Shown: piece by piece, positions 3,990 to 62,621 of the stretch
Numbering within the stretch: position 1 is the first letter of the stretch
Layout of the letters: the number at the start of each line of letters is the position of its first letter
DNA from: a virus
Length of the DNA stretch: 64,000 nucleotides
IMG/VR virus record: IMGVR_UViG_3300042731_002679
Location: 1 to 64,000 of that record
Strand: one strand, 5' to 3'
Position numbers and translations under genes: made by a program
The notes under the pieces: model-generated
The model's input: the letters and a program-made list of their open reading frames with translations, nothing else
What the model was told of the DNA's origin: nothing
Database searches by the model: none

Positions 3990-4238
3990 TTATCCCCGCA
4001 AAACCCCCTTTCTTACGAGAATTGCCCGAATTTTTTCTTCGGGACATTCCGGGGGTGCCTGACCATCGAAGTTGTAGTCAGCACCCCCGCACGCCAGCCG
4101 CTTTGCGCAGTCCCACACCCGGGCGGCGACCGTGGGAAGATCGAAGGTTCCAAGCCAGATGTCCTGGTTGTCGATCTTCAACTTGGCCCGGTACTTGCCC
4201 TTCTGGACGTGGTAGCTGACGCCTCGGAACTTCTTCAT
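3990..4238 (-). CDS. Stand-alone AP2-domain DNA-binding protein
   Basis: 82 aa, almost all of it one AP2/ERF-type domain: FRGVSYHVQKGKYRAKLKI (4-22), then IWLGTFDLPTVAARVWDCA (27-45) and the closing GADYNFDG (52-59). In this fold three strands read the DNA major groove and one helix packs behind. In phages the domain usually sits on the end of HNH homing endonucleases; no nuclease domain is present here. The start overlaps the stop of the upstream gene (ATGA). It may be a transcription regulator of this operon or a remnant of a homing endonuclease. Confidence 0.8.
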   Translation of the reverse strand: MKKFRGVSYHVQKGKYRAKLKIDNQDIWLGTFDLPTVAARVWDCAKRLACGGADYNFDGQAPPECPEEKIRAILVRKGVLRG

Positions 4239-4702
4239 TTCACTGGCCTCGATTGAAGTCGTTTACGGATGGCACACAAGGGGCAGGACTTGGCGTTGTC
4301 GTTGGCAAGGAACTCCCGCAAGTGTTTCGGCAGCTTGCCCAGGATGGCCGCCCGGAGTTTGTCGGGGTGGTAGTCGACCCTAGCAGCGAGTTGATCGACA
4401 GGGATGCGTGCCTCACTTTGCTCCTCGACCCATTTCGTCGCCTTTACGCCAGGGCCGAGCTTGCCGTGGACCTCGGCCAACTGCTCTCGGTAGGCTTTGA
4501 CGGCGTGGGCCAATTCGACGTAGCGAACCCCCAGCATATCCAGGGCTGCCACGCACTCGATCACGTCTTCCCGCGCCCACTCGACAAGCCCCAGGCAGAG
4601 AGCCAAATCAGGGTCCGCGACGTGACGCCTCTCCGCTTCCGGGTCGCTCCACGTCTCGGCGATCTGCTTGGCGCGTTTCTTCTGGCTGGGATTCACCGTC
4701 AA
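4235..4702 (-). CDS. Hypothetical protein
   Basis: 155 aa, not recognised. It looks helical and charged, with SQKKRAKQIAETW near the start, and ends with CPLCAIRKRLQSRPVK (one CxxC, not a full zinc site by itself). It overlaps the downstream AP2 gene by 4 nt and the upstream glycosyltransferase by 95 nt, so one of these boundaries may be off or the genes really overlap. Confidence 0.5.
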   Translation of the reverse strand: MTVNPSQKKRAKQIAETWSDPEAERRHVADPDLALCLGLVEWAREDVIECVAALDMLGVRYVELAHAVKAYREQLAEVHGKLGPGVKATKWVEEQSEARIPVDQLAARVDYHPDKLRAAILGKLPKHLREFLANDNAKSCPLCAIRKRLQSRPVK

Positions 4703-5330
4703 TCCTCGCTGTTCGACGCCCTAACCAGTTCTTTCGGGTGGGTCCGATGTGAAGAACTTCCCAGGGCGGTCTCCGAAGATTCGCCCGCGGCCACTGCTTG
4801 TAGAAAGCCGTGTCGCAGCCCTGGCAGTTGGGAAATTGGGCAGGATAGGCAAGTTCCCCTCTCAGTGACGGATCGCCGGCATGGAATATCTGGCAGTAGC
4901 CGGCGAACTCCCCCGTCTTGCTTTCGCGATCTGCGAAACCGAGCCTGCCCCACTCCTCTTCCGGGGGGATTGCGGCGTGGTTGTCCAGGCTGCGCCGCAG
5001 CGGCGAGTAGAGGAAGCCCGGCTGGTACTCGTAGTCCTTCGCCGCCCGTGGTATCACCACGTCGGCATCGAGAATCGCGATCCAGCCGAAGGGTTCCATC
5101 CACTTGAGGGCCTCATTCAAGCCTGCGCCCTTGTTTATGACAGCATTGTCTGCGAAAAACACGTCGGTTGCCAGCAGACATACCTTCTCGTCCGATTCGT
5201 GGACAAGGGCCTGTGTCCTGGCGTCCATGCTGGCCGTGACCACGATGATCTCCTCGAAGATCGGCAGCCAGCTTGGCAGCACCCGCTGGAGGTAGTCGTC
5301 GTAGCCCACGCAGGTCGTGACGGCTCGCAT
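4608..5330 (-). CDS. GT-A fold glycosyltransferase
   Basis: 240 aa. Features of a nucleotide-sugar glycosyltransferase: an N-terminal Rossmann-like part (MRAVTTCVGYDDYLQRVLP, then IIVVTASMD), and a metal-binding DxD in IAILDADVVIP (residues 84-94). The second half has PNCQGCDTAFYKQWP and EVLHIGPTRKNWLGR, the acceptor side. The last ~35 residues are polar, probably disordered, and overlap the next gene. It is one member of a cassette of sugar-modifying enzymes in the capsid operon. Donor and acceptor cannot be read from sequence. Confidence 0.7.
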   Translation of the reverse strand: MRAVTTCVGYDDYLQRVLPSWLPIFEEIIVVTASMDARTQALVHESDEKVCLLATDVFFADNAVINKGAGLNEALKWMEPFGWIAILDADVVIPRAAKDYEYQPGFLYSPLRRSLDNHAAIPPEEEWGRLGFADRESKTGEFAGYCQIFHAGDPSLRGELAYPAQFPNCQGCDTAFYKQWPRANLRRPPWEVLHIGPTRKNWLGRRTARIDGESQPEETRQADRRDVERPGSGEASRRGP

Positions 5331-5333
5331 GGA

Positions 5334-5546
5334 TCAGTCCTGTCCGCAATCGAACGCTGAGATTCGTTCCCGCTTCATGGCGTTGATGATCTCCCCTACC
5401 CCCTTCTGGACGCTCAGCACGGACGGATGGTTGCGGAAGGCCACAGCGCCGGACCCGATCTGCTGCGGGTGCTTCGCTACCCAGCACACGTCTTCGGTGT
5501 CGATCAGGGCTACGCCGCCGTCTTGCATCTGGACTTCAATGAGCAT
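5334..5546 (-). CDS. Small FlbD-like protein
   Basis: 70 aa from the ATG at 5546. The opening MLIEVQMQDGGVALIDTEDV and later VGEIINAMK have the pattern of short FlbD-type proteins (a small beta structure with a C-terminal helix), though the similarity is slight. It is sandwiched between two glycosyltransferases with almost no spacing, so it is co-transcribed with them. Function unknown. Confidence 0.45.
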   Translation of the reverse strand: MLIEVQMQDGGVALIDTEDVCWVAKHPQQIGSGAVAFRNHPSVLSVQKGVGEIINAMKRERISAFDCGQD

Positions 5547-5551
5547 GTGAC

Positions 5552-6448
5552 TTACCAGTACGGGTTGCTCTCGCACCGCACGCCGGGAATCTCGGGGTAG
5601 TCCTCGACCCGGTCGTGCTGGAGCGGATAGGCGTGCCAGGGGTCCTCTTGCCGGAACCGCTGGCTCGGAAGGTGCGAACGGTAAAACTTACACTTCGGCG
5701 ACAGCATCGCTGCCACGAAGGAGAACGTGCTGTTCGGGGCCAAAATGACTTTACACTGCGTCAGCAGGTAGAAATCCGGGTAGAAGTCCATCTGCGACGG
5801 GTCCTTCTCTTGAAGGTCCCTGGGCAGGTAGTTGTAGTTCGGCAGCGGTTGATCGTAGAGCGACATCCCCAGGTCTTCGGCCGTGGCCGGATCGTACTGC
5901 GAGAACTCACTGACCAGCGACTTGTCTTCGGTGGCAATGAACATTCTCGGCCGGCTCAGGGTCGGCCACACTTCCTCCAGGCAACGCAAGTACCACTCGA
6001 CCGGCGTGATGTAGAAGTGCAGCCGGCCGTAGTCGCCTCGGCGAAGATGCACGCCGACCCAGGTGTCGTAGGTCCCCTTGTTCTTCACCGTCATGGTTCC
6101 GAATCGGAACAACTGGAGGAACCGCTGCTTCCACTTGCCGAAGTAGGACGTGTGATACTGGGCATAGCCGACGAAGTCCCGGTTCACCACGTCGTCGTGA
6201 TCGGGCGGCAAGGCTTGGTAGAGGTGACTGTTTTGCAGAACGGGTTCATGGTAAGGCGGCAACTCACAGTCGATCGGTTGATACCGCGCATAGAGAAGGT
6301 CTTCACCGACCCAGGGCGGAAGCTGGAGTTGGCAGCCGTGTTCTTCGGCGTAGAGCGACAGGAAGGCGTACTGGAAACACTGGTTCCCCCAGCGGCCCAT
6401 CTTGCCGAAGTTCCGCATGGTGATGATGGGTTTGTTGCTTTGGAACAC
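5552..6448 (-). CDS. GT11-type fucosyltransferase-like protein
   Basis: 298 aa, close to the usual length of bacterial alpha-1,2-fucosyltransferases. Three family hallmarks are in order: GRWGNQCFQYA at 18-28 (family GxLGNQxFQYA, with W in place of L), VGVHLRRGDY at 131-140 (the HxRRGDY motif that binds GDP-fucose), and NSTFSFVAAML at 239-249 (family NSTFSxWxAxL). The expected reaction is transfer of fucose from GDP-fucose to the 2-OH of a galactosyl acceptor. The phage shows no GDP-fucose pathway here, so it would use the host pool. It is part of the sugar cassette. Confidence 0.82.
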   Translation of the reverse strand: MFQSNKPIITMRNFGKMGRWGNQCFQYAFLSLYAEEHGCQLQLPPWVGEDLLYARYQPIDCELPPYHEPVLQNSHLYQALPPDHDDVVNRDFVGYAQYHTSYFGKWKQRFLQLFRFGTMTVKNKGTYDTWVGVHLRRGDYGRLHFYITPVEWYLRCLEEVWPTLSRPRMFIATEDKSLVSEFSQYDPATAEDLGMSLYDQPLPNYNYLPRDLQEKDPSQMDFYPDFYLLTQCKVILAPNSTFSFVAAMLSPKCKFYRSHLPSQRFRQEDPWHAYPLQHDRVEDYPEIPGVRCESNPYW

Positions 6449-6460
6449 GGCATGACTCGC

Positions 6461-7996
6461 TTAGGAGGGCTTGAAGAATTGGAGGTAGCCGCCGTGCGTG
6501 TTGATCCGGCCCACCGCCCCGCAGATCGTCGTGGCATCGGGTTCCAGGCCGAGGAACCGGACAACCGACTCCACGAACTGCACGGGCATCGACTTGATCG
6601 CCTCGTAGCTGGTTATCAGGCTCGGGCACTCCACGGTCGACAGGCAGCCCATAAGCTGCGCCAGCAGGTTCGCCGACCGCTCGAACGATTGGTAGGGTTT
6701 TCGCGGGTGCGTGTTATACAGACGCGACTGGGCCAACGCCACCAAGTCACGGAACACGAAGATGCAGCACGGGTTCCGCACGTTCGACGGCAGCATGTCC
6801 AGGGTCACACGCCCGTAGGGATTCTTGAACCCCCACACATCAAACCGCTCGTTGAGTTGCGAGACCTCATATTCCTGATCGGCCATCGACCCACGGACGA
6901 AAATCTTGTTCTCGAAGGACCCGCCGGATGCCATATCCTCGGGCTCGCCCATGTGAACCCCAAGCCCATCGAGGACGGCCGCCACCGACGACGTACCGCC
7001 ACGCGGCACGCCGACAACGAGGACCGTCTTGGGCTCGTCCGCGTCGGCCATTCCGTTGGCGACGAACATCACCGGGGCGGCGGCCCCGATGCCTTCCGTG
7101 GTGCGGTTCGTGGCAAGATCGAACGCCTCGATCTCCGGCATCTTCTCCACCGTTTTCTGCGTAACCGCCTCCAACTCGTAAACCTGCTGCGTGTTGTGGT
7201 GCTGTTGCGACAGCGCCCGCAGTTCCCCCACCAGAATGTCATTGAGCGCCCCCTTTTCTTCCGGGGCGCGGGCGTAGTTACTGGCCTCGCCGCTGGCGTA
7301 GGTGTGGTCGTACTCCAGGCCGCCCAGCACGGCCAGCGTGCGGCCACTGGCAAGCCAGTACATATTGAAGATGAACGAATCGTTGGCGTCGAAGATGAGT
7401 CTTGATCGGTGGCGTTGACGCTCGCCTTCCGGGAGTCCCAACCAGTTGGGCATTTCCAGATCGGCACGCCAACCACGGTACTCCCCGAACACCTCCAAGA
7501 AGGTTTCGCGATGCACGGTTTGGTTGCCGGTATTCAGCATGCAGCCGGCCATCGGCCGATCGACGAGATCGCCCGCTTCGCGTATCGACCAGGCGCCAAT
7601 CAGTTCCCGGTAGTCGAACTCCGGGCGTGCGAACGAAGGGCAATACCACACGTTCGGGTCAAGGCACGGTTCGACCTGCAACAGCCGGTCAATGAACTCA
7701 TGGCTCATGCAGTTGTCGGAATCGCAGTTGATAACCCATTCACCGGAACACTGGGCAATGGCCTCCAGCTTGTTGCCGAAAACGCCGAGATTGACCGTGT
7801 TTTGAAGAAACCGCGCTTTCGGACAGCCTGGACATGCCGTTACGCCGCCGCTCGGCGAAGCATCGTCCACGACGACGATTTCCGAAACAGCAGGATGGCC
7901 GTGGAGAGTTTCAATGGCACGGAAAAGAAGCTCGCCGTGTTCGCGCTCGGGTGTCAACTCGTTGTACGCGGTGATCGCAACGGAGAATTGTGTCAT
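6461..7996 (-). CDS. Fusion of GT2 glycosyltransferase and sulfotransferase
   Basis: 511 aa with two enzymatic halves. Residues 1-~250 are a family 2 glycosyltransferase: FSVAITAYNE at the start, IVVVDDASP (40-48) and the metal-binding DSDN (92-95). Residues ~322-511 look like a PAPS-dependent sulfotransferase: VLVVGVPRGGTSSVAAVL (325-342) matches the 5'-phosphosulfate loop and IFVFRDLVALAQS (412-424) the 3'-phosphate site. A helical linker joins them. The fusion suggests a sugar that is transferred and then sulfated, or a sulfated chain built by one polypeptide. Both domains carry their signature residues; the coupled reaction is an inference. Confidence 0.75.
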   Translation of the reverse strand: MTQFSVAITAYNELTPEREHGELLFRAIETLHGHPAVSEIVVVDDASPSGGVTACPGCPKARFLQNTVNLGVFGNKLEAIAQCSGEWVINCDSDNCMSHEFIDRLLQVEPCLDPNVWYCPSFARPEFDYRELIGAWSIREAGDLVDRPMAGCMLNTGNQTVHRETFLEVFGEYRGWRADLEMPNWLGLPEGERQRHRSRLIFDANDSFIFNMYWLASGRTLAVLGGLEYDHTYASGEASNYARAPEEKGALNDILVGELRALSQQHHNTQQVYELEAVTQKTVEKMPEIEAFDLATNRTTEGIGAAAPVMFVANGMADADEPKTVLVVGVPRGGTSSVAAVLDGLGVHMGEPEDMASGGSFENKIFVRGSMADQEYEVSQLNERFDVWGFKNPYGRVTLDMLPSNVRNPCCIFVFRDLVALAQSRLYNTHPRKPYQSFERSANLLAQLMGCLSTVECPSLITSYEAIKSMPVQFVESVVRFLGLEPDATTICGAVGRINTHGGYLQFFKPS

Positions 7997-8538
7997 GGCT
8001 TGAAGAACCAGAAAGAGGCGTTATCGTCGTGATCTTCGGGAACGGTATGGATGGGGGTATCGAACCGCCGGGCAAACTCGTCGGCGGCCGGCTTGACGGT
8101 CAGGGTGGGGTTGAGGTAGTCGTGGCCCGCCATGATTCCCCCTCGCCGCAGTTTGGGCCAGTAGCACTCCAGGTCACGCATCACGAACTCGTAGTAGTGC
8201 GTGGCGTCGATGTAGACGAAGTCGAGCGACCCATCGGGGATGCGGTCGGCCATGTCGTGCGACCAGCCGCGGAGGATCGCTACGCGGTCGTCGTTGCCGG
8301 CCGTGTTGGCGAGCATCCCCTGGTAGGCTTTGTCGTGGCGTTCGTTTGACCAGCCGCCGAGTTCGGCCTTCATGCCCTCGACGTGCTGCCAAAGGTCGAT
8401 GAGATACAGCAGCGACACACCCCAGGAAAGGATTTCCTTGGAGAACCGACCTTCGGCAACACCGACTTCGGCGGCGTGCCCGAGCAATTCGTGTTCGGCC
8501 AAGAGTTCACCGAACTGGCTGCGGTGTTTGATCTCCAC
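7993..8538 (-). CDS. Class I SAM methyltransferase
   Basis: 181 aa from a GTG at 8538 that follows AGGGGGGGA; a longer in-frame start exists but lies deep in the upstream gene. It matches the Methyltransf_24-type family: AEVGVAEGRFS (the SAM-binding glycine motif), LYLIDLWQH, then LDFVYIDATHYYEFVMRDLE and a GGIMAGHDY segment with the conserved GHDY. Such enzymes usually methylate sugars or small surface molecules in glycan clusters. It overlaps both neighbours by a few bases. Confidence 0.75.
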   Translation of the reverse strand: MEIKHRSQFGELLAEHELLGHAAEVGVAEGRFSKEILSWGVSLLYLIDLWQHVEGMKAELGGWSNERHDKAYQGMLANTAGNDDRVAILRGWSHDMADRIPDGSLDFVYIDATHYYEFVMRDLECYWPKLRRGGIMAGHDYLNPTLTVKPAADEFARRFDTPIHTVPEDHDDNASFWFFKP

Positions 8539-9310
8539 GATCCCCCCCCTTCTCCCAGTCGAACGTGCTGGGGTCGAAGTCTTCCATGCGCTCGGTCCAC
8601 ACATAGGGACCGAGCTTCTTGAAGTGGCTGAAATGAGTGAACCCGCCCGTGCCGATGTCGCTGGCGTTGTCCATTTGCCACGCGGCGCCCGGGACGAGGC
8701 AGTAGCAGTTCAGGGCGTCCCCGATGCGAATGAAGTTGTGGTCGATGCCGTCCGAGTTGGGCAGCATTTCGTCCAGGGCGTCCAGTACCTTGCGGGCGTT
8801 GCGGCCGTTGACGAAGTAAGCGTAGGTTCCCCACTCCCCGAACACCCGCAGGATGTGCGGATCGTCTGTCGGTTCCACGTCGCGACCGCGATGGTGCCAC
8901 GCCGCGCAGTCCGGGTTTGCGTACCACACCCCGGGCACATGAAACGTCGCCCCGAGGTAGAGCACGTCCCAGTCCCAGGTGAGGTGTTCTTCGAGGTACG
9001 CCAGCCGGTCCTGCAAGTCCTCGCAGAAGCACACGTCGTCCTCGAAGACTCCCACGATCCGATCCGAGCCAACGGCCGTGCGGATCACATGGGTCTGCGA
9101 CTGGTAGCAGCCGATCGCTCCGGGCGTCCTGGCGCGGATACGGGCCACCTTCTCTTCCGGCCCCGGCCACTCTTCCGGCAGGAACGCCTCAAAACGATCA
9201 ACCGGCAAGTTAGCGCGCGCGAACTGTTGATTGGCGTGGGCCATGCGATCCGTGCGGTGGGCCAGGTTGATTACCCAGTTATCCAGCCGGAAGCGGTCGA
9301 AGTGGCTCAT
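8507..9310 (-). CDS. Family 25 glycosyltransferase
   Basis: 267 aa. Motifs of the GT25 family (LPS/LOS beta-galactosyltransferases and collagen glucosyl/galactosyltransferases): WVINLAHRTDRM (12-23), GAIGCYQSQTHVI (64-76) and VFEDDV (88-93), where the acidic residues bind the metal. The C-terminal part is polar. It is one of four glycosyltransferases placed before the scaffold and capsid genes. Donor sugar not predictable. Confidence 0.8.
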   Translation of the reverse strand: MSHFDRFRLDNWVINLAHRTDRMAHANQQFARANLPVDRFEAFLPEEWPGPEEKVARIRARTPGAIGCYQSQTHVIRTAVGSDRIVGVFEDDVCFCEDLQDRLAYLEEHLTWDWDVLYLGATFHVPGVWYANPDCAAWHHRGRDVEPTDDPHILRVFGEWGTYAYFVNGRNARKVLDALDEMLPNSDGIDHNFIRIGDALNCYCLVPGAAWQMDNASDIGTGGFTHFSHFKKLGPYVWTERMEDFDPSTFDWEKGGDRGDQTPQPVR

Positions 9311-9969
9311 GCTTCGCCTTTTCTGCGAAAGAGGTAGTTCTCGGAATACTCCCCGATGAGGTCGTGACCTGGCAGCAGGGCGATCAGTTCGTCAAGCGTC
9401 GGATAGCCGAGGTACAACTGACCGAAGGACTGCTGGTTGTGGCACTCCACGTAGACGTAGCGGGTGCGGGCAAGGACTCTCTGCCCGCCGCGCAGCACCT
9501 TGGCCTCGGCGCCCTGCACGTCGATCCATGCCAAATCGACGGGAATGGGCAAATCAAACGTGTTGTCTGCCCACTCGTCGAGAGTCGTCGTCGGCACCTG
9601 GATCGTGGAGTCGAACTTGCACCACGGGCTGTAGCTGAGGTGCCCAGTCGGCAGGCAGAGTGACCCGCTCTTGTCCCAATCTTGCCAGTCTTCCCGCTGG
9701 CAGTTCGGCGGCGTGCCGCCCGACTGGTAGAAGTCGAACTCTCCGCACTCGTCCGACAGGGCCATTTCAACGAGGGTGGCCCGGTTGCCGACGTTGGCGT
9801 GCCACTTGGCGATCGCCCGCGGATCGCACTCGAAGCAGTAAACGTGCGCGTCGGGCAACGCCTCGACGAACCGAAGCGTGTCCTCCCCGTCGTTGGCACC
9901 GATCTCCAAGATGGTCTGGGCGAACGGCCCGAGTAGATCGGGAAGTTCCTCGATGGGAAGTTCGGGCAT
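9307..9969 (-). CDS. FkbM-family methyltransferase
   Basis: 220 aa from the ATG at 9969. FkbM (Methyltransf_21) pattern: ILEIGANDGEDTLRF near residues 20-34 for SAM binding, VYCFECDP (43-50), and VDLAWIDVQGAEAKVLRGG, the family's DVQGxExxVLxG motif. FkbM enzymes O-methylate sugars and related hydroxyls, and sit in many surface-glycan clusters. Its start lies 2 nt after the stop of the upstream glycosyltransferase. Confidence 0.8.
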   Translation of the reverse strand: MPELPIEELPDLLGPFAQTILEIGANDGEDTLRFVEALPDAHVYCFECDPRAIAKWHANVGNRATLVEMALSDECGEFDFYQSGGTPPNCQREDWQDWDKSGSLCLPTGHLSYSPWCKFDSTIQVPTTTLDEWADNTFDLPIPVDLAWIDVQGAEAKVLRGGQRVLARTRYVYVECHNQQSFGQLYLGYPTLDELIALLPGHDLIGEYSENYLFRRKGEA

Positions 9970-9971
9970 CG

Positions 9972-10742
9972 TCACGTCCTCACGTACCGGGCCATGTTGT
10001 CCTGAATGGTCTCCTTCGACCGCCAGCCCTCGGCCATCCGGGGATGCTTGATGTGGAACAAACACATTTCGGGCTCGACCGGCATTTCCGCACGGTACTT
10101 CTCGCCGTATCTTCGCCAGATTTCCCGGTTCATCCACATATCCTCCCATCCCGATCCTGCGAAGGCTTCGCAGAATCTCAGGTCCCCCAAAGTTTCCCTG
10201 GTTATCGAAAACTGGGAATTTCCGAACAGCGGTTCGCCGACCGGCTGATCGAGTTGCGGAAGGACCCGCCCCTCGTGGCGCAGCCGGTGGCGATCGTCAT
10301 CGTACCGTTCCCAGCAGTGATCCACGGCCTTGAGCCAATCCGGGTTGGTCACGTCGACCGAGAACGACACGGACGGCCGGAGGTCCCGAACCCGGTAGCA
10401 GACCTTCGTGATCCGCGGATCGGCCAACCAGCGTGCGGCCTCGAACCACCGCCGGCCGACGAGGATGTCGGCGTCGAGGAAAGTCAGCACGTCGCCGGTT
10501 GCCGCTTCGATCCCCAGGTTCAGGGCCACCGGCTTGTTGTAGAGGTCCCCATCCTGTTCGTCTGCAACGAGCCGTACCGCGTCGTATTCCGTGCCCGGCA
10601 GCAGGCTGGATCGGTTGTCGACCACGACGATCTCGAAATCCCTGATGCGGCACGCCTTGGCCGATTCCACGAGGAAATGAAGGGCGCACGCCAGGTGGGC
10701 GTTGCGTTTCCTGTGCGGAATGATGATCGAGTGCCGAGGCAT
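9972..10742 (-). CDS. GT2 glycosyltransferase
   Basis: 256 aa from the ATG at 10742; an upstream in-frame ATG is less likely. It opens HSIIIPHRKRNAHL, then EIVVVDNRSS (37-46) and LTFLDADILVG (86-96), the nucleotide-sugar and DxD motifs. The C-terminal half has FGNSQFSITRETLGDLRFCE and GWEDMWMNRE, typical of the galactosyltransferase-type C-terminal region (xxGWEDxD). It is the first gene of the leftward operon, next to the divergent promoter region. Confidence 0.8.
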   Translation of the reverse strand: MPRHSIIIPHRKRNAHLACALHFLVESAKACRIRDFEIVVVDNRSSLLPGTEYDAVRLVADEQDGDLYNKPVALNLGIEAATGDVLTFLDADILVGRRWFEAARWLADPRITKVCYRVRDLRPSVSFSVDVTNPDWLKAVDHCWERYDDDRHRLRHEGRVLPQLDQPVGEPLFGNSQFSITRETLGDLRFCEAFAGSGWEDMWMNREIWRRYGEKYRAEMPVEPEMCLFHIKHPRMAEGWRSKETIQDNMARYVRT

Positions 10743-10781
10743 CCTGTGCCACCTTGGAGGGAGCAACCCGTGCGAAGGGAA

Positions 10782-12905: not shown

Positions 12906-13097
12906 ATGCTTGTTCTGGAACGCGCGAAGAATGAGGCCGTCCTGGTCCCTTCCGTGTCAATGAAGATCGTCGTCATTTCGATCGACAACGGCAAGGTCAG
13001 GCTGGGATTCGAGGCCCCCCGGGAAGTTGACATCGTCCGCGACGACGCCAAAAACCCCAACCCCAAGGATCGAACCAACGGCGGGGAGCAAAGGTAG
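12906..13097 (+). CDS. csrA: CsrA/RsmA-family translational regulator
   Basis: 63 aa from the ATG at 12906, behind AAGGAC. CsrA pattern: MLVLERAKNEAVLV (family MLILTRRxGExxxI), KIVVISIDNGKVRLGF, then EAPREVDIVRDD (family APKEVxVxRxEI) with the RNA-binding arginine of the last strand in place. CsrA dimers bind GGA-containing hairpins near start codons and block or stabilise mRNAs. A phage copy could rewire host translation or act on the phage's own GGA-rich leaders. Confidence 0.8.
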   Translation: MLVLERAKNEAVLVPSVSMKIVVISIDNGKVRLGFEAPREVDIVRDDAKNPNPKDRTNGGEQR

Positions 13098-15449: not shown

Positions 15450-15524
15450 CCCAGCGGGGGCGTGGGGTGCAGAAGCCGGCCTATGGGCCGGTCGCGGTAT
15501 CAACCGCAAGACGCCCCCGCTGGG
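15450..15524 (+). ncRNA. Structured element: 14-bp closing stem with two inner hairpins
   Basis: A perfect 14-bp inverted repeat (15450-15463 with 15511-15524) encloses two hairpins: CCGGCC/GGCCGG around 15476-15491 and GCGGT/ACCGC at 15494-15507. It begins right after the stop of the coiled-coil gene and is followed by GGCTTTCC, so it may be a terminator, a processing site or a leader structure for the gene at 15559. The plan resembles the element at 16610. Confidence 0.5.
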
Positions 15525-15558: not shown

Positions 15559-15894
15559 ATGTTTTTCGTTACACGCGAACAACTGATTGCTCTGTTGGAA
15601 TGCCAACGCACGCACGACGCTGCATGGCGGGAATTTCCCATGCTGTACGAGGACAAGCCCGACTTGCAAATGCACACCCTCGATATAGTCGCCGACATCG
15701 TCGGCGTGCCGGCAGACAACACGGTGGAAACGCAAGCCTGCGAAATTGCCAACGCCACCGGCGAGTGGCCGGAAGATGCCTATTGCCGAGACTGGGTATT
15801 CCACGACTGGGAATCGGTCGAGGATGGCAAACAGACCGCCGAGTGGTTTCTGCGCCAGCTTGAGGAAGAAGCAACTCGACACGCCGCGGGGTGA
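15559..15894 (+). CDS. Hypothetical acidic protein
   Basis: 111 aa, acidic, helical, rich in Trp/Glu/Asp toward the end (WPEDAYCRDWVFHDWESVED). AAGGAA precedes the ATG by a few bases. Not recognised; it lies alone behind the structured element at 15450. Confidence 0.6.
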   Translation: MFFVTREQLIALLECQRTHDAAWREFPMLYEDKPDLQMHTLDIVADIVGVPADNTVETQACEIANATGEWPEDAYCRDWVFHDWESVEDGKQTAEWFLRQLEEEATRHAAG

Positions 15895-16561: not shown

Positions 16562-16609
16562 GGCGGATGCCTTAACCAACACGGATGAAGGAATGGTCAG
16601 TCTACGAAC

Positions 16610-16706
16610 AAACCCCCCGACCCAGTGGCCAGGGCGCTCCGCAAGGGCGTCCAAGGCGGCCCTTCACCGCCTGGCGACGACCACTGGGTCGGGGGGTTTC
16701 TTTGTG
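16610..16706 (+). ncRNA. Putative small RNA or attenuator with 19-bp terminator stem
   Basis: A perfect 19-bp inverted repeat, AAACCCCCCGACCCAGTGG (16610-16628) with its complement at 16681-16699, is followed by CTTT. It encloses two more hairpins (about 16631-16652 and GGCGG/CCGCC at 16656-16671). With the promoter at 16534 this makes a ~140-nt transcript ending in a strong terminator. An open frame runs through the stem into the next gene, but a stem this long argues for RNA function. Alternatives: an attenuator for the replication operon, or a plain terminator for upstream genes. Confidence 0.6.
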
Positions 16707-16721
16707 CGCGGAGGCTCTGCT

Positions 16722-17495
16722 ATGGCTGCCGATTGGATCAAGATTGAGCACGGACTGCACACGAAGCCCGAAGTTCTCCAGCTTGCCGATCTTCTCGAAA
16801 CCTCCGAAAACGAGGTAGTTGGCCTACTCGTCCGATTCTGGCTTTGGGCTGACGCGAATCTGTCCCCTGAATGTCCCACCGTCGTCGGGACAACATCAGG
16901 ACTGAATCGGGTCGTCGGGCGGGACGGCTTTGCCGAAGCGATGGTATCGACAGGGTGGTTGATTGCCGACAACGGCTCGGTCTCGGTTCCGAACTACGAC
17001 CACCATTTGTCGCAAAGTGCTAAACAGAGGGCACTTGAGGCGAAAAGGAAGCGAAAGCAACGTGCGAAAATGTCCCGAACTTGTCCCGGGACATCTGGGA
17101 CAAAAGGTGGGACTAGAGAAGAGAAGAGAAGAGAAGAGAAGAAAGAACCCCCTAAGTCCCCCAAGGGGGATCAGTGGTTCGATGCGTTTTGGGCGTCGGT
17201 GCATCTCAAGGTTGGAAAGGCTAACGCGGAGAAGGCTTTCGCGAAGGCCGTCAAGCGCGTAGCCCAGGAACGGGAGTGTCTGATGCATGAAGCGGCCGAG
17301 CACATCGTCGAGCGAATGAAGGCGTTTGCCAGGACGCCGCAGGCCAACCCGGCTGACCACAGCCCGGTCCACCCGGCGACGTGGCTTAACGGTGGCCGGT
17401 ACGACGACGACCCGGCAGCGTGGGGTCGCGGCGACCGCCAGCAGAGCCTTCCCCTGGACAACACCCCGCACCAGCCCACCCGGAGGTACGACTGA
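16722..17495 (+). CDS. Replication initiator / helicase-loader-like protein
   Basis: 257 aa from the ATG at 16722. The N-terminal 110 residues resemble phage replication-initiation proteins with a winged-helix fold: MAADWIKIEHGLHTKPEVLQ, then a VGLLVRFWLWADANL helix and a domain ending NYDHHLSQSAKQRA. A basic, repetitive linker follows (REEKRREEKKEPPKSPKG) and then a helical DnaT/DnaD-like C-terminal part ending HPATWLNGGRYDDD. The stop overlaps the start of the DnaB helicase gene, which supports a role in origin recognition or helicase loading. Confidence 0.7.
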   Translation: MAADWIKIEHGLHTKPEVLQLADLLETSENEVVGLLVRFWLWADANLSPECPTVVGTTSGLNRVVGRDGFAEAMVSTGWLIADNGSVSVPNYDHHLSQSAKQRALEAKRKRKQRAKMSRTCPGTSGTKGGTREEKRREEKKEPPKSPKGDQWFDAFWASVHLKVGKANAEKAFAKAVKRVAQERECLMHEAAEHIVERMKAFARTPQANPADHSPVHPATWLNGGRYDDDPAAWGRGDRQQSLPLDNTPHQPTRRYD

Positions 17496-25064: not shown

Positions 25065-25094
25065 CGCCGCATCAATGTCCGCGGTGCTTTTGAA

Positions 25095-25133
25095 GCCCGT
25101 CCCGTCGCGAAATGACGGGGCGGGCTGCTTTTC
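25095..25133 (+). terminator. Rho-independent terminator
   Basis: A 12-bp GC-rich stem with one G-T wobble, GCCCGTCCCGTC with GACGGGGCGGGC, loop GCGAAAT, then TGCTTTT. It closes the small-gene operon ending at 25064. Confidence 0.7.
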
Positions 25134-25835: not shown

Positions 25836-26027
25836 ATGCACCTTAGAACCATCACAGCATGGGCTCTGATAGCCGCCGGCTTCGCCTGCATCCTGGCTGG
25901 CGGTGCGTATCACCTCTTCTGCCGCCCCGAATGGACGCAGGCCCAGGCGTTCTGGAACCTGTGGTACTTGTGGCTCGCCGGCGTGACCCTGACGATCTTC
26001 GGTTCGTCCATGCAAAGCCGCGGGTAG
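25836..26027 (+). CDS. Small two-span membrane protein
   Basis: 63 aa with two hydrophobic segments, TAWALIAAGFACILAGGAYH (6-25) and about 38-57 (AFWNLWYLWLAGVTLTIF). Function unknown. Confidence 0.5.
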   Translation: MHLRTITAWALIAAGFACILAGGAYHLFCRPEWTQAQAFWNLWYLWLAGVTLTIFGSSMQSRG

Positions 26028-26113
26028 ATCGGCCTGAACCCCCAAAAAAGTTTCTTCTCCCTACCAGACAACGACTTATGACCCAAAATGGCCCACTTCT
26101 CACGGTTTTCTGA

Positions 26114-26143
26114 TTGACACGAACCCCGAATCGGGGCTATCTT
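26114..26143 (+). promoter_or_regulatory. Sigma70-like promoter with palindromic spacer
   Basis: TTGACA (26114-26119), 18-bp spacer, TATCTT (26138-26143). The spacer contains CCCCGAATCGGGG, a perfect 6-1-6 palindrome and a likely operator. It lies just upstream of the structured RNA at 26150-26254. Confidence 0.6.
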
Positions 26144-26149
26144 GCCCGT

Positions 26150-26254
26150 CGTTGGGCCACTGGAAAGGATAAACAGCGATTTTCACGGCCCCGAGCCGAT
26201 CGAAAATAGCCCGCCTCCTTTTCAGTGGCATGAAATTCGGCGGGCTTCTTTTTC
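26150..26254 (+). ncRNA. Structured small RNA candidate with terminator
   Basis: Downstream of the promoter at 26114 the transcript can form: P1, CCACTGGAAAGG (26157-26168) with CCTTTTCAGTGG (26217-26228), 11 of 12 pairs plus a wobble; P2, GCGATTTTC (26176-26184) with GAAAATAGC (26202-26210), capped by CGGC/GCCG (26186-26198); and a terminator, GCCCGCC (26209-26215) with GGCGGGC (26239-26245), then TTCTTTTT. The 3' half of P1 lies in the terminator loop, so P1 and the terminator either exclude each other or form a pseudoknot, as in an attenuator or riboswitch. No known class was recognised. Confidence 0.6.
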
Positions 26255-26311
26255 GCGCCCCTCCACGAAAAGAAGCCCAGCAACGACGCAAGGGTATTTA
26301 TCGTGGAGGGG
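26242..26311 (+). repeat. Interlocked inverted repeats
   Basis: GGGCTTCTTTTTC (26242-26254), which is the 3' part of the terminator above, pairs with GAAAAGAAGCCC (26267-26278). CCCCTCCACGA (26258-26268), lying in the loop and 3' arm of that hairpin, pairs perfectly over 11 bp with TCGTGGAGGGG (26301-26311). Each hairpin thus shares sequence with the one before, allowing mutually exclusive folds. Confidence 0.6.
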
Positions 26312-26352
26312 AGTCTCCGTGCGGATCACAACCAACACCAGCCACCAGAAGC

Positions 26353-26394
26353 AAAGCCCCACGGCCTCAGACGAGACCGTAGGGCTTTCTTTCT
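26353..26394 (+). terminator. Terminator with inner hairpin
   Basis: AAAGCCC (26353-26359) pairs with GGGCTTT (26382-26388) around an inner ACGG...CCGT hairpin, followed by CTTTCT. It ends the chain of hairpins that starts at 26150 and lies 29 nt before the next CDS. Confidence 0.55.
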
Positions 26395-26422
26395 GCGCCG
26401 GCACCAACCCCTGACCAACACC

Positions 26423-26749
26423 ATGCCACGAGACGACTGGGCAAAAGCCCGAAGAAAAGACGCCTCCAAGCAAGCAACCGCAGACGCGGCCAAGAAACGT
26501 CATGGCCAACGCCACGCCGCAAGGAAAAGAATCACCAAGTCTCTCGGACCACACACCAAACTCTGGTTCGGGAAACACAAAGGCCGCCCACTTTCCCAAA
26601 TCCCCCGGCCTTACCTGGCTTGGCTGTCTCAACAGCCGGCCGCCTCTTCCTGGCGACTACAAATCCTCCAGAACTTCCTGCTGGAGACCTATCTCCCACA
26701 AACCTCCGGACAACCGGAAGAAAGGAACTCAAGAGTAAGCCCCTGTTAG
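26423..26749 (+). CDS. DUF3820/ExoX C-terminal-like protein
   Basis: 108 aa from the ATG at 26423. WFGKHKGRPLSQIPRPYLAWL (from about residue 48) matches the small fold of DUF3820 and exonuclease X C-terminal proteins (FGKxKGxxLxxLPxxYLxWL), followed by SWRLQILQNFLLETY. The N-terminal 45 residues are basic and low complexity. The ribosome-binding site is weak. Function: probably nucleic-acid binding; no nuclease domain. Confidence 0.6.
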   Translation: MPRDDWAKARRKDASKQATADAAKKRHGQRHAARKRITKSLGPHTKLWFGKHKGRPLSQIPRPYLAWLSQQPAASSWRLQILQNFLLETYLPQTSGQPEERNSRVSPC

Positions 26750-27550
26750 GCAAACCCAGGCCAGCCGCAGGTTCCCCCAAACGAACAAACGGGAACCAAA
26801 CAGTCGCCAAACCCTCTCGCGACCGGCCAAAGGGTCAAAAAGGCTCCGAGGAGCCTACCGCCAAGGCGAAAGCACAGCAACAATCCCCGATCCAACCAAG
26901 TGTGCGGAGTCGGTTTACCGAAATCCGGGGAACCTGGCCGCACAAAACCAAAGTCTCGGCAAGTCGCCCCACGATTGGCCAACGCCGAGCCGTCGCGAAG
27001 GAACCTGCCAACAAAGGCAGATTGGGGAGGTCAAAAAAACCTCCGTTTGGCTGCGACGATAAATAACACGCCGGGGAATAGGAAGGGAACCTCTGCGCGC
27101 CCGAACCACCTACACCTCCAAAAACCCACCTAAACCCTGCCGTGTTACCAACTTCCACTTCCGTAATATCCTACTCCAGGCAATCTGGGTAAGATGGGTA
27201 GCACCCTGGGAAATGCTCAAAAAGTCCGGGGAGGTAGCTACAATCTGTGACTTGGGGTGGGAAAAAGGGTGCTGCCCCGGGTGGGTTGGGCACGGGTTTG
27301 GCCGATACGCCTAGACGTTTCGATCCGACGCGGCCGGAATCCGGTGGCGCGTTCGCACGGAACTAATTTTCGCAGCGTTTCCTGTCTAAAACGTAAGCCG
27401 ACTCACAGCCTAGACTTAGCCCAACCACTAATGGGGCGAATGGCCCAACAAGCCTACTTCTGAGGGGCATGATAACCTGGTTCGGTTCTGCCGGTTGTCC
27501 CGAATCCCAAGTGTCCACATAACGTGTAGTCGCGTAACGGAGGGGTTTAC
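26750..27550 (+). other. About 800 bp without a convincing gene
   Basis: The sequence is rich in A and C on the plus strand in its first 350 bp and lacks a gene with good start and coding pattern; open frames here are low-complexity Lys/Arg/Pro text. It contains small hairpins (GGTTCCC/GGGAACC near 26770, AGGCTC/GAGCCT near 26840). The region lies between a terminated operon and the promoter at 27551. It could hold a replication origin or a packaging or regulatory site; nothing diagnostic such as iterons was identified. Confidence 0.4.
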
Positions 27551-27578
27551 TTGACGTAACCGATTGTTGGGATATACT
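27551..27578 (+). promoter_or_regulatory. Strong sigma70-like promoter
   Basis: TTGACG (27551-27556), 16-bp spacer, TATACT (27573-27578), the best -10 of the set. It drives the gene at 27720 through a ~135-nt leader that contains CGGGCGACTTGCCCG (hairpin), TTTCAAGTTGAAA (palindrome) and two copies of GCCGATCGG, so the leader may be regulated. Confidence 0.65.
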
Positions 27579-27719
27579 TGAGTGTATGACTTCGGGCGAC
27601 TTGCCCGTGGTCCGTTCTTTGACAACCTATCCGAGTTTTCTGCCGATCGGCCGGCGAGTTTCAAGTTGAAACTGGTTGTTCTCGCCGATCGGTTCACCCG
27701 TAGCAAAGGGAGAGAGAGA

Positions 27720-28682
27720 ATGAAAGCCGTAAGCGCGATGGTCGCGGAGTTCGGCAACTTGTCGCGGGCGAAGCAAGAGAAGGGTATCGTGGACCGGGAG
27801 TTGTCGAAGGACAAGGCCGACCGGAACCATACCCGCGAACAGTCGGCGGCTGTCTATGCTGCCCTCTTGCACGCGACGCGGAACCCGGCAGAACAGGGTG
27901 ATTCGGCGGCTTTGTGTCGTCAGTCCCTATTCGCCCGACTGGCCGACAAGACTAAGAAGGACGGAAAAACCTTCTATACCTATGCAAAGCAAGGCTTCGC
28001 TATGGTGAAGGTTCCCCTTCTTGACCGCGACGGGATGACGGCGCAGCTACGCGAAGCTTGCCGGTTGCTGGAGTTCGACGACAAGGACTCCGACAATCCG
28101 GTGAGAGAGTGCAAGGCCGGCGCGTTGTCGAAGCTTTCCGGGTTCTTGGCCGACTGTGAGTCGGACAAGGACAAGGACGGTTCCGCGGCAGAGTTCCGCA
28201 AGATTGCGGAGACTGTCAAGCCGCGTGCGGGTCGTGAGCCGCGGACGGGTGGAACGGAAGCCCCGAAGGATTCGCCGAATCCGGTTGAGGGCGAACCCGG
28301 CTTGACTTCCCGCCCTGAAGGATTCGCCACGGACCCGTTTATCCGCATGCTGGCGAAAATGCGGGGCGATGCTGCCACCGATACCGTTTACAAGCTCTCC
28401 GAAGTGGTGGCAGGGCATGAGGAAGTGGAAGCGCTTATCATGTCGCAACTGGCAGCTATCCGTGATAGCTGGAGTACTTCGGTGGAGGGATTCGCCAAGT
28501 GGGAGTGGTTTGTGGATGCGGTCACGCATGAATGTTCCACACACTTCACCGAAGCGCGTCTGGAAGCGCTGCAGGAAGCCGAAGCCGCCAGCAAGGGTGA
28601 GGCGAAGCGCAAGGCCGAGAAGCTCCGCAAGGGCGGAGCTACTCCCCAGGAAGTCGAAGAAGCGCTTGCGGGCGCGGCATAG
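27720..28682 (+). CDS. Unknown protein, monocistronic, own promoter
   Basis: 320 aa from the ATG at 27720, behind GGGAGAGAGAGA. Not recognised. Residues 1-~140 are helical and basic (SRAKQEKGIVDRELSKDKAD); the middle is acidic and disordered (CESDKDKDGSAAE, then EPRTGGTEAPKDSPNPVEG); the C-terminal third is helical with a final charged coiled-coil stretch (LEALQEAEAASKGEAKRKAE). A good promoter, long leader and strong terminator at 28691 mean it is expressed alone. Candidate: a DNA-binding or host-takeover protein; no direct evidence. Confidence 0.6.
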   Translation: MKAVSAMVAEFGNLSRAKQEKGIVDRELSKDKADRNHTREQSAAVYAALLHATRNPAEQGDSAALCRQSLFARLADKTKKDGKTFYTYAKQGFAMVKVPLLDRDGMTAQLREACRLLEFDDKDSDNPVRECKAGALSKLSGFLADCESDKDKDGSAAEFRKIAETVKPRAGREPRTGGTEAPKDSPNPVEGEPGLTSRPEGFATDPFIRMLAKMRGDAATDTVYKLSEVVAGHEEVEALIMSQLAAIRDSWSTSVEGFAKWEWFVDAVTHECSTHFTEARLEALQEAEAASKGEAKRKAEKLRKGGATPQEVEEALAGAA

Positions 28683-28690
28683 TCAACCTA

Positions 28691-28723
28691 CCCCCTGCCC
28701 TACCTTGGGCAGGGGGTTTGCTT
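28691..28723 (+). terminator. Rho-independent terminator
   Basis: CCCCCTGCCC (28691-28700) pairs with GGGCAGGGGG (28707-28716) over 10 bp with a 6-nt loop, then TTTGCTT. It follows the stop at 28682 by 8 nt. Confidence 0.8.
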
Positions 28724-28783: not shown

Positions 28784-28811
28784 TTGACATACCCCCCTGC
28801 CGTGGTAGAAT
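28784..28811 (+). promoter_or_regulatory. Sigma70-like promoter of the small-gene array
   Basis: TTGACA (28784-28789), 16-bp spacer starting TACCCCCC, TAGAAT (28806-28811). The first bases after TTGACA (TACCCCC) are the same as in the promoter at 35891. A TACCCC/GGGGTA inverted repeat spans spacer and -10 (28790-28818). It leads into a 25-codon leader ORF and then the array of small genes. Confidence 0.65.
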
Positions 28812-28827
28812 AGGGGTATCGTCGAAC

Positions 28828-28905
28828 ATGAGTGAGGCGGTTGTGAATTTTCAAGCGGCGCGCGGTTGTCCCGTCTGCCGCTTGCTCCCTTGGCAGCGAT
28901 GCTAA
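28828..28905 (+). CDS. Short leader peptide candidate
   Basis: 25 aa (MSEAVVNFQAARGC then PVCRLLPWQRC). It is the first ORF after the promoter at 28784, with little ribosome-binding sequence. The segment TCAAGCGGCGCGCGG inside it (28851-28865) recurs exactly at 28944-28958 just before the next gene. It may be a translated leader or just spacer. Confidence 0.35.
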   Translation: MSEAVVNFQAARGCPVCRLLPWQRC

Positions 28906-28982
28906 GGTTTTCTTGTGCGCCGTGTTCGCGGGTTTGCGAACGGTCAAGCGGCGCGCGGCCCCGTAGCTTGGAGGGTGGAATC

Positions 28983-39251: not shown

Positions 39252-39533
39252 ATGGCAACACGAAGCGCTGACGGATACCAACTTTTCTACGGGGCGTTCG
39301 TCTACATCCGGGTTGGCGGCGAGTATCCCCCTGGCAGGTATCGCGCAAGTTCCATGAAGATCGCGTCGATCAACCCAAACCGACGCAAGAGCCTGCGTTT
39401 AGAGCCGCCCCCGGATTCTGGCAGGACAAAGGGCTGCTGGCGATCACCCGACGAGGTGTACCGCAACGGAGACGTTGCCAGGGGGCTGAGGCCCAATGGT
39501 TCACAGCGACAGGAGGATGCCCATGCAAGCTAA
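39252..39533 (+). CDS. Short hypothetical protein
   Basis: 93 aa from an ATG 1 nt after the previous stop. Basic (PNRRKSLRLEPPPDSGR). Its last 11 nt overlap the helicase start. Not recognised. Confidence 0.4.
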   Translation: MATRSADGYQLFYGAFVYIRVGGEYPPGRYRASSMKIASINPNRRKSLRLEPPPDSGRTKGCWRSPDEVYRNGDVARGLRPNGSQRQEDAHAS

Positions 39534-42022: not shown

Positions 42023-42895
42023 ATGCCCCAAATCTACGGCTACGCACGAGCAAGCACGAAGAAGCAAGAGGACTCGCCGACCGTGCAGGCCGACAAGATC
42101 GTGGCCAGGGCCACGCAACTGATCGAGGACGACCCCACGCTGTCGCCCCTGGACCCCGAAGAACACATCGCCTCCGAACACAAGTCGGCCGACCGAATCT
42201 CATGGGAAGACCGACCGGCCTTTCAGTCGCTCATGCGGACGATCGAAGAAGGAGACGTGCTGATCGTCACCCACTACGATCGCCTCGACCGCAACCCGCT
42301 ACGGTTCATCGCCTGCCTTGCCGAGCTACAAAGGAAGAAGATCAGGCTGATCCTGCTGAACTGCGACTTTATGATGCTCAACAAGGAGTTCGATCTGGAC
42401 GATGCCCAGTGCGTGTTCCTCGCCTTCCAGTGGGCCTTGTTTCTGAAGATGTGGTCCGACTACAACAGGCAGCGCCTCCTCGACATGAACGTCTGGCTGA
42501 AAAAACAAGGGCGGTGCCGAGGGCGAGTGCCGTTCGGCATGGTGGCCTACAAGAAAACGGACGGCAAATACTACCTCCGCTGGGACAAGCAGCAATGCAC
42601 CTACATGCTGGAACTCTACAACCGAATCCAGTGTGGCGAGACGTTCATTGAAATCGGACACGACTGGCACCAACGCGGGCTCACTCGCCAGCGAGTTCCC
42701 GGGGGTGAACCGGAGCCCTGGGTGGCACGCAACTCCCGCTGCGACCGGAACAACCCGAAGTGGCAGCCCCACGCCCACCGGATAAAGGACGCCTACAAGC
42801 GAGCCGCCAAGATGATCGAAGAAGAGGGCATGGTCGGCTGCGTGCCCTACGATCCTACCGTGGGAGTTGAGTACGCATGTTCTGCAACTCCTTGA
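42023..42895 (+). CDS. Serine recombinase (resolvase/invertase type)
   Basis: 290 aa behind GGAGGATGAGTAG. N-terminal catalytic domain: YGYARASTKKQEDSP (5-19) with nucleophile S11 and the arginine R9, then VLIVTHYDRLDRNPLRF (79-95), the conserved DRxxRN. A longer C-terminal part (~135-290) contains a RCRGRVPFGMVAYKKTDG segment and a recombinase-type end, but is shorter than in large serine integrases (~450-700 aa). Possible roles: integration, DNA inversion or resolution. The gene is last in the plus-strand block and its 3' end overlaps the convergent gene by 41 nt. Confidence 0.8.
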   Translation: MPQIYGYARASTKKQEDSPTVQADKIVARATQLIEDDPTLSPLDPEEHIASEHKSADRISWEDRPAFQSLMRTIEEGDVLIVTHYDRLDRNPLRFIACLAELQRKKIRLILLNCDFMMLNKEFDLDDAQCVFLAFQWALFLKMWSDYNRQRLLDMNVWLKKQGRCRGRVPFGMVAYKKTDGKYYLRWDKQQCTYMLELYNRIQCGETFIEIGHDWHQRGLTRQRVPGGEPEPWVARNSRCDRNNPKWQPHAHRIKDAYKRAAKMIEEEGMVGCVPYDPTVGVEYACSATP

Positions 42896-60998: not shown

Positions 60999-62621
60999 TT
61001 AGGTGCTTCCGGCCTCGTAGGGATGGTCTCTGTCGACGAACACCCGCGTCCCGTCCGGCTCGACTACCCAGAAGTTGTTCACCGCGCTGCCGATCCACTC
61101 GACCAGGCCAAATGACGCCCCGCCTTCCAGCGTCGTGCCCTCGAACTCCGTGCCGGTGCTGCCGTAAATCCAGAATCCCGCCCGCAGGGTCGAGTAGCGG
61201 GGATCGTTGCCCGTGCGGACCAGTGTGCAATCCTCGATCCGGGCCGAATGGCCGACGCCCCCGGGCTCGCCCAGCAGCACGTTAGCCAGCGGTGACTCCA
61301 TGCGAATGTCGCGGTACAGCACGACAGGGTGAGGGCCGGGGTCGCTTCCGTTTCCCATCACGCTCATGCACGCGACTTGCTGGTGGAAGTCGTCCCACAG
61401 GTCCTCCGTCTCGACCGTGACCGAACCGCCCTGGACGACGATGTTGTGGTTCGTCAATCCGCCGCCGACCCAGTAGCCGGTGCCGTAGGCTTTACCGGCC
61501 AAACGAATGATGATCTCGTTGTCCCGAATGTCGAGGTTGCTGCTGTCGTCGCGGCAACGGATACCATGAGCACTCGCACGGTCGCCGTACTCGCCAGATC
61601 GGTTGATCGGCCCTTCCATCGACAGTTCGACGTAGTTGCCGACCGCCTCCGAGTCGGACCCGCCGCCGGTGAAGCTAATCGCGATGACATGCTCGCCCCT
61701 GCCGTAAATATAGTTGTAGTTGGCCGACACGTTCGTCTTGCCGTAGGCCAGCACCGCCCCAGCGTTGGTCGCCCAGGAGTCGATCATAAACTCGTTGTGC
61801 TGGATCGTGTCCCCGCCCTGGAGGTTGAACGCCCGATGCCGGGTGGTGATGACGTTGTGCTCGGCGACGATGCCGGTCCCGAGGATGCCAATCGTCGTTA
61901 CTCCGACGTGCCGATTACTGATGCCCGTACCGCGATCCCGGACGACGCTGTGATGGAGATACCCGGCATGGCCATCACGCAAGTAGATGGCCATAGAGTC
62001 GTCGCCTGCGTATTCAATCTCAACACCCGCGATTTCTGCACCCTGCATGGCAATGGAGTAGATTGGGTGCTGGTTCGTGCGCGATACCCCTTCACGAATG
62101 AAGCCATTGAACACCTCCAATCCCGAACGGTTCCAGGTGTCGCCGTGAACCCCGTATCCAAACTCACTGTTGCCGTAGGTGATCGTGTGGCCATTCAGGT
62201 CGAGCGTGACCCCGCTGGCCTGGACGGTGATTGCCGTGCCGGGCGCGTCGATGTCGGCCGTCAGGTGGTAGTGGCCGGGGGTAGCAATCGTTGTCGGGGA
62301 ATCAATGGGCGTCGAGTTGGCGAATGCCACCGGCTGGAGCGTGACGCCCTGCCCAGTCGGCTGGCCGTCCTGGTAGAACACCGCGTCGACCGCCTCGCCG
62401 GGCAATAGTCCGTCAACGTGCCAGAAGTGGCCGTGCTTGCCGCTGAATGAGGGCCGGGCCGACGACTCGCCTTCGATCTGCAAGTGAACCGACGACGGCT
62501 CGGCGGTTTCGCAGTAGACCACCGCCGCGTCCTGGCTGTCGTGCTGCCATACGTTCATCACCGAGAGAAGCGTTCGCGTCTCCAGTGGTTCGATTCGGCA
62601 TTGACGGGTTGCGGTCAGCAT
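60999..62621 (-). CDS. Beta-helix spike with planctomycete-type N-terminal motif
   Basis: 540 aa. Residues 9-20 are RIEPLETRTLLS, the LE-x-R-x-LL motif seen near the N-terminus of planctomycete surface proteins. Residues ~100-490 look like a right-handed parallel beta-helix: repeated short strands (GVTLDLNGHTITYG, ATTIGI-type turns, EVFNGFIREGV, HNVITTRHRAFNLQGG). This is the fold of many phage tailspikes and pectate-lyase-like enzymes. No catalytic residues can be set from sequence. Likely a receptor-binding or depolymerising spike. Confidence 0.65.
   Translation of the reverse strand: MLTATRQCRIEPLETRTLLSVMNVWQHDSQDAAVVYCETAEPSSVHLQIEGESSARPSFSGKHGHFWHVDGLLPGEAVDAVFYQDGQPTGQGVTLQPVAFANSTPIDSPTTIATPGHYHLTADIDAPGTAITVQASGVTLDLNGHTITYGNSEFGYGVHGDTWNRSGLEVFNGFIREGVSRTNQHPIYSIAMQGAEIAGVEIEYAGDDSMAIYLRDGHAGYLHHSVVRDRGTGISNRHVGVTTIGILGTGIVAEHNVITTRHRAFNLQGGDTIQHNEFMIDSWATNAGAVLAYGKTNVSANYNYIYGRGEHVIAISFTGGGSDSEAVGNYVELSMEGPINRSGEYGDRASAHGIRCRDDSSNLDIRDNEIIIRLAGKAYGTGYWVGGGLTNHNIVVQGGSVTVETEDLWDDFHQQVACMSVMGNGSDPGPHPVVLYRDIRMESPLANVLLGEPGGVGHSARIEDCTLVRTGNDPRYSTLRAGFWIYGSTGTEFEGTTLEGGASFGLVEWIGSAVNNFWVVEPDGTRVFVDRDHPYEAGST

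Follow-up and report, generated by a model that had tools for sequence, protein, structure and literature searches.

Is the gap between the end of a 63-aa ORF (26027) and the start of a 108-aa gene (26423) in an unclassified phage a regulatory RNA unit, or only the place where terminators close an upstream operon? An earlier note had read it as a switch with alternative folds: an attenuator, a riboswitch or a regulatory RNA. We examined the gap within the window, that is, the 64,000 nucleotides at positions 1-64000 of a 68,303-base virus record, whose identity as a phage rests on a DnaB-like gene at 17420, another helicase gene at 39496 and a DNA-invertase/integrase-like gene at 42023. The genes flanking the element are all on the + strand, and no tRNA was found in the 64-kb window. 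The likeliest reading of the region is a non-coding unit controlled through terminators, the mechanism of which we infer from the features collected in Table 1.

Table 1. Coordinates of the features in and next to the gap, as positions in the window
Feature	Position	Arms	Strand	Details
Sigma70-like promoter	26114-26143		+	TTGACA 26114-26119, 18-nt spacer, TATCTT 26138-26143; 10/12 match
13-nt palindrome CCCCGAATCGGGG, candidate operator	26124-26136		+	In promoter spacer; read from the sequence
P1	26156-26229	26156-26169/26216-26229	+	14 pairs, one G-U; inner helix ~26176-26210
T1, terminator-like hairpin and U tract	26203-26253	26203-26215/26239-26251	+	Repeat search, folds
H3, second partner of T1 3′ arm and U tract	26242-26278	26242-26252/26268-26278	+	11 perfect pairs
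B, GC-rich hairpin	26258-26311	26258-26268/26301-26311	+	11 perfect bp; fold z -6.45
T3, terminator-like hairpin, T-rich 3′ side	26346-26395	26346-26368/26373-26395	+	83% in the repeat search; fold z -5.79
Downstream gene	26423-26749		+	108 aa; PF12843-like, 26.8 bits versus cut-off 22

The five helices listed in Table 1 behind the promoter all exist, as judged by direct reading and a repeat search, and most of them are interlocked. P1 and T1 cross, with arms that touch at 26215/26216, in agreement with the sharing noted earlier between P1 and the T1 loop. T1, the core of which is 8 bp (26208-26215/26239-26246) followed by TTCTTTTT, has one strand in common with H3, and the downstream H3 copy CGAAAAGAAGCCC resembles the T1 5′ strand CGAAAATAGCCC. 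The 3′ arm of H3 lies inside the loop of hairpin B; the arm that these two helices had been said to share comes down to a single base of overlap, and they otherwise cross in pseudoknot order. The final terminator, T3, is present and ends 27 nt before the start codon of gene 26423, but it is separate from the chain and has nothing in common with the other helices. Both T1 and T3 consist of a GC-rich stem and then a T-rich tail, as intrinsic terminators require; a terminator scan with a loop limit of 3-8 listed neither of them on the + strand and only T3 on the - strand.

This amount of structure is not what chance would give. The fold z of the region, calculated on a stretch that includes 26144-26150 and so probably some bases upstream of the transcription start, is -7.04, with none of 200 shuffles as low, while the short RNA taken by itself (26150-26254) stands out less (z -2.94, 2/200 shuffles). 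At a fixed helix score we counted four strong helices (T3, P1, B and H3), compared to a mean of 0.22 and a maximum of 2 in 300 shuffles, and in a GC-corrected fold scan of the 64-kb window 26201-26320 ranks second among + strand segments and third among those of the - strand. These results confirm that the intergenic region is strongly structured and non-random.

A rival account of the region is that T1 and T3 are plain tandem terminators closing the upstream + operon, with B and P1 as bystanders, a promoter that is a chance match or a local start, and no switch. Bystanders, however, would not be expected to give the pairings that we found. The downstream sequence that complements the T1 3′ strand exactly over 11 nt, corresponding to the second partner that the earlier note had assigned to this arm (H3), has an equal in only one of 5,000 shuffles of 26254-26345. 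Similarly, nested T1 pairing is 0.148 natively, whereas shuffling 26151-26202 while keeping 26203-26253 raised it to a mean of 0.945 (median 1.0), with 15 of 500 shuffles as low as the native sequence. The elements, their non-random complementarity and the competition predicted between them are what the sequence shows; complementarity exceeds chance for H3 and, more weakly, for P1 versus T1.

Whether P1 and T1 exclude one another depends on the folding model. For a start at 26151 the nested model gives 0.85 for P1 versus 0.15 for T1, and nested T1 pairing varies with the start, from ~0.02 at 26148-26150 to 0.30-0.34 at 26152-26153. In folds of the growing chain P1 appears once ~26228 has emerged, T1 never forms under the nested model, and H3 appears over a short length range and is followed by B. 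Forcing the nested T1 fold costs 2 kcal/mol (-34.7 versus -36.7 for the P1 fold). The nested model cannot represent pseudoknots, and a rough pseudoknot sum puts P1 and T1 together at about -44 versus -36.7 nested; this value adds the T1 helix (-20.7) to a P1 fold in which the T1 arms are free (-33.0), applies a pseudoknot penalty of 9.6, and is uncertain in that a 9-nt linker must span the 14 bp of P1. The same sum is neutral for H3 with B (~-69.4 versus -69.9). P1 and T1 together may therefore be the best fold in this approximation, and P1 may act as an antiterminator or may instead belong to a pseudoknotted terminator; a true value near -44 would make it no antiterminator. Because a pseudoknot would let both helices coexist, they may not be mutually exclusive. 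Of the labels offered for the element, a riboswitch of the ligand type has no support, and 'attenuator or regulatory RNA' is the best, if unproven.

Upstream of these helices, the promoter-like sequence with a palindrome in its spacer is present as had been described, and its spacing leads us to expect a transcription start near G26151. Its significance is only moderate, as sites this good number 2 in 3.2 kb versus 0.7 expected by chance, and 5 versus 3.8 expected over 20 kb. The palindrome CCCCGAATCGGGG has one exact copy within the 64-kb window, and the 21-nt motif around it has no match under 3 mismatches in 384 Planctomycetota genomes. It had seemed to recur among the loci of a Planctomycetota DNA search, but we rejected it as a recurrent motif: the matches in 66 of the 384 genomes are all at 3 mismatches, and a reversed control gives matches too, if fewer. 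No promoter-like site above 6/12 lies between T3 and the start codon at 26423, so that gene 26423, as read here, needs read-through or another type of promoter.

We therefore favour, tentatively and at somewhat under an even chance, a non-coding unit in the gap before gene 26423 in which transcription, termination and any effect on the gene would be connected as follows. The promoter at 26114 would direct an RNA starting at ~26151, a fraction of which would end at T1 to give a ~103-nt RNA with its 3′ end at ~26253, while the read-through fraction would run to T3 (~245 nt) or on into gene 26423. The fold around P1 would set the ratio of termination at T1. The B loop offers the T1 3′ strand another partner, so that the short or the read-through RNA could pair with that loop. 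In the predicted P1 fold the last 12 bases of the short RNA, which hold the H3 arm, are unpaired, and opening this tail costs 0.3 kcal/mol for a start at 26151 and 2.5 for a start at 26149. The B loop, however, takes 9.7 kcal/mol to open, and because of these opening costs pairing in trans would be weak (a duplex of -15.6 against 10.0). In addition, the predicted dimer uses pairs other than those between the short RNA and the B loop, and H3 has a probability of 0 in the nested read-through fold. Two further pairings were discarded: that of 26149-26155 (GTCGTTG) with 26281-26287, where the longest match of 6 was reached by 724 of 3,000 shuffles, and the minimum-free-energy pairing between 26144-26150 and the 3′ arm of T1, which uses bases probably upstream of the start. 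Against the proposed mechanism we count the moderate promoter score, the lack of a homologue and the strong hairpins in other gaps of the same phage.

These other gaps, together with promoter-like sites that are not clearly above chance over 20 kb, are what make plain tandem terminators a serious rival, although one somewhat less likely than the reading that we favour. At 15450-15524 and 16597-16712 on the + strand, long stems enclose two hairpins in a three-way junction before the start codons at 15560 and 16722, and further strong intergenic hairpins lie at 25094-25126 and 28690-28717 (11 pairs, terminator-like). The hairpins at 15450 and 16597 and T3 are each followed, at a distance of 9 to 35 nt, by the start of a + gene, with no promoter-like site above 7/12 in between. 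This recurring pattern makes the element less singular; it also speaks for habitual use by the phage of terminators that are leaky or controlled, or of processing sites, and the position of T3, directly ahead of a + gene and followed by no promoter, counts against simple closure of the upstream operon. A second possible unit was seen at 28784-28911 on the + strand, with a promoter-like site of 11/12, ~100 structured nt (z -2.85) and a hairpin with a T tail; the hairpin at 28690-28717 precedes it.

We consider it unlikely that the element is a true attenuator of gene 26423, in which P1 would be the default antiterminator, a factor (ribosome, protein or other RNA) would free T1, and T3 would act as a second gate. 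The growing-chain folds, in which P1 can already be in place while the T1 3′ arm is still to be made, and the small difference between the two nested folds are consistent with this arrangement. T3, however, has no competing helix, and therefore read-through of T1 alone would not reach gene 26423. The pseudoknot would moreover allow P1 and T1 at once, and we identified no signal or factor.

It is very unlikely that the hairpins serve to process or stabilise a polycistronic message, as the RNase III sites between T7 early genes do. Stems of 14 to about 20 pairs, and similar hairpins directly ahead of the + genes at 15560 and 16722 without an intervening promoter, are in favour of this reading. 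The T-rich tails of T1 and T3 do not suit such a role, which also leaves H3 unexplained, and the stems of P1 (14 bp) and B (11 bp) are short for RNase III. A DNA-level element, with inverted repeats serving as cruciforms or protein sites of a replication origin or recombination site, is highly improbable: an A+C-rich, apparently non-coding stretch adjoins the gap and the phage has the invertase/integrase-like gene, but cumulative skews have no global extreme here, which led us to reject an origin at the element, no iteron-like repeat family is found in 26000-27600, and T-rich tails suit termination.

The non-coding unit that we favour has no recognisable kin among the sequences searched. Rfam 15 gave no match in the 64-kb window at the gathering threshold, in line with the earlier remark that the element matches no known class, and relaxing the limit to E 5 brought only three matches in 26000-26430, all of them below threshold. 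C4, isrK and riboswitches would be among the Rfam 15 families. Searches of a phages collection, IMG/VR and Planctomycetota, from which very near records may be absent, found no relatives of the element. In the phages collection a DNA search returned nothing, and three proteins returned distant matches only (five records for the 39496 helicase, one for the 46605 protein), with none for the 27582 protein; in bacterial and archaeal genomes nothing was confirmed for the 27720 protein. Among five proteins searched in IMG/VR only that of gene 26423 gave loci, five in number. The nearest relative of gene 26423 (L005) supports the start of this gene, with 85% DNA identity over 41 bases beginning at the ATG; in its 4200-5300 region we found one 10-nt inverted repeat with near arms and none comparable. 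An exact 16-nt pattern matched 12 stretches of IMG/VR, the surroundings of all of which we inspected; the best of the 12 is identical over 21 bases and lies near small phage genes that run on the opposite strand, the remainder of the element has no counterpart there, and we regard the match as chance. In IMG/VR, a 20-nt pattern drawn from the loop of B had no match.

In Planctomycetota, a DNA search gave matches in 9 of 392 genomes at E up to 0.01 per genome, with ~4 expected by chance; seven of eight loci that were realigned did align, each piece being 23-48 nt, and gene 26423 had four weak matches in the 392 genomes. A covariance model (R1) built from the single sequence as two identical rows gave 11 matches at E up to 1 in 372 Planctomycetota genomes, the best at 0.014 per genome, and no homologue; across 16 sources its hits were the window itself, the minus strand of the window at B-T3 (E 0.0006) and a single further match at E 0.92. 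Among the papers listed in literature searches, none was on this element.

Its layout nevertheless recalls known phage RNAs. The C4 antisense RNA of phages P1 and P7 is short and is encoded in one unit with its target, as is predicted here, but our element has no Rfam match to it and no ant or icd neighbours were recognised. C4 is described as regulating ant expression (PMC8201110). For IsrK of the Salmonella prophage Gifsy-1, the account in PMC4825925 has some transcripts passing their own terminator and the short form pairing with the long form. The element shares with that account, as far as predicted from sequence, a promoter, a short self-terminated RNA, partial read-through with complementary sequence, alternative folds and a phage gene downstream (PMC4825925). 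It differs in that it has no Rfam match to isrK, and in that the pairing of IsrK makes the ribosome site of an ORF upstream accessible and the gene that follows encodes an antirepressor (PMC4825925), whereas we recognised neither such an ORF nor an antirepressor. The P4 CI RNA, in the same source, pairs with seqA upstream and seqC downstream in a leader with controlled termination (PMC4825925). Here likewise one strand, 26239-26253, is complementary to sequences on both sides, 26203-26215 and 26268-26278; CI, however, is made by processing, while in our case the strand is a terminator arm and the short RNA would arise by termination, and there is no demonstrated sequence kinship between the two. 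By analogy of layout, the best reading is that the element would work like the IsrK and P4 CI RNAs. We do not claim membership, since there is no Rfam match, the RNA is predicted, and no antirepressor or replication gene was recognised directly downstream, where gene 26423 is PF12843-like and gene 27582 has no Pfam or PHROG match.

A bolder version is quite unlikely. In it, a tandem-pseudoknot switch would use one terminator 3′ strand and U tract in common for T1, crossing P1, and H3, crossing B, and the short terminated RNA would act back on its own read-through transcript, an independently arisen circuit of the P4/IsrK type in an unclassified, perhaps planctomycete, phage. If transcribed as predicted, the element would give a phage that has no known relatives a compact RNA regulator and would place a double-duty terminator arm outside enterobacterial prophages; if it consists only of tandem terminators, it is ordinary.

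Some observations concern the phage at large. The ORF at 60999-62621 on the - strand carries ...IEPLETRTLLS at its N-terminus, which we take to resemble a motif of planctomycete proteins, and the host may accordingly be a planctomycete on this sequence hint. Several ORFs at 4600-10770 on the - strand resemble glycosyltransferases or sugar-related proteins, as judged by eye. The phage has a CsrA-like gene at 12906-13097 on the + strand (49 bits versus cut-off 27); csrA genes are reported in phages, with a count of 30/2517, and CsrA is described there as preferring GGA in a loop (PMC7366521). Control of P1 by CsrA was set aside and kept as a weak idea, as the two GGA triplets in P1 are paired rather than looped. 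Beyond T3, 26396-27170 on the + strand is rich in A+C and poor in T; 26750-27066 has no clear 3-base periodicity, and as far as the next gene, at ~27588-27720, the sequence seems not to code. The C-rich, G-poor RNA of 26396-27170 could be a Rho loading region.
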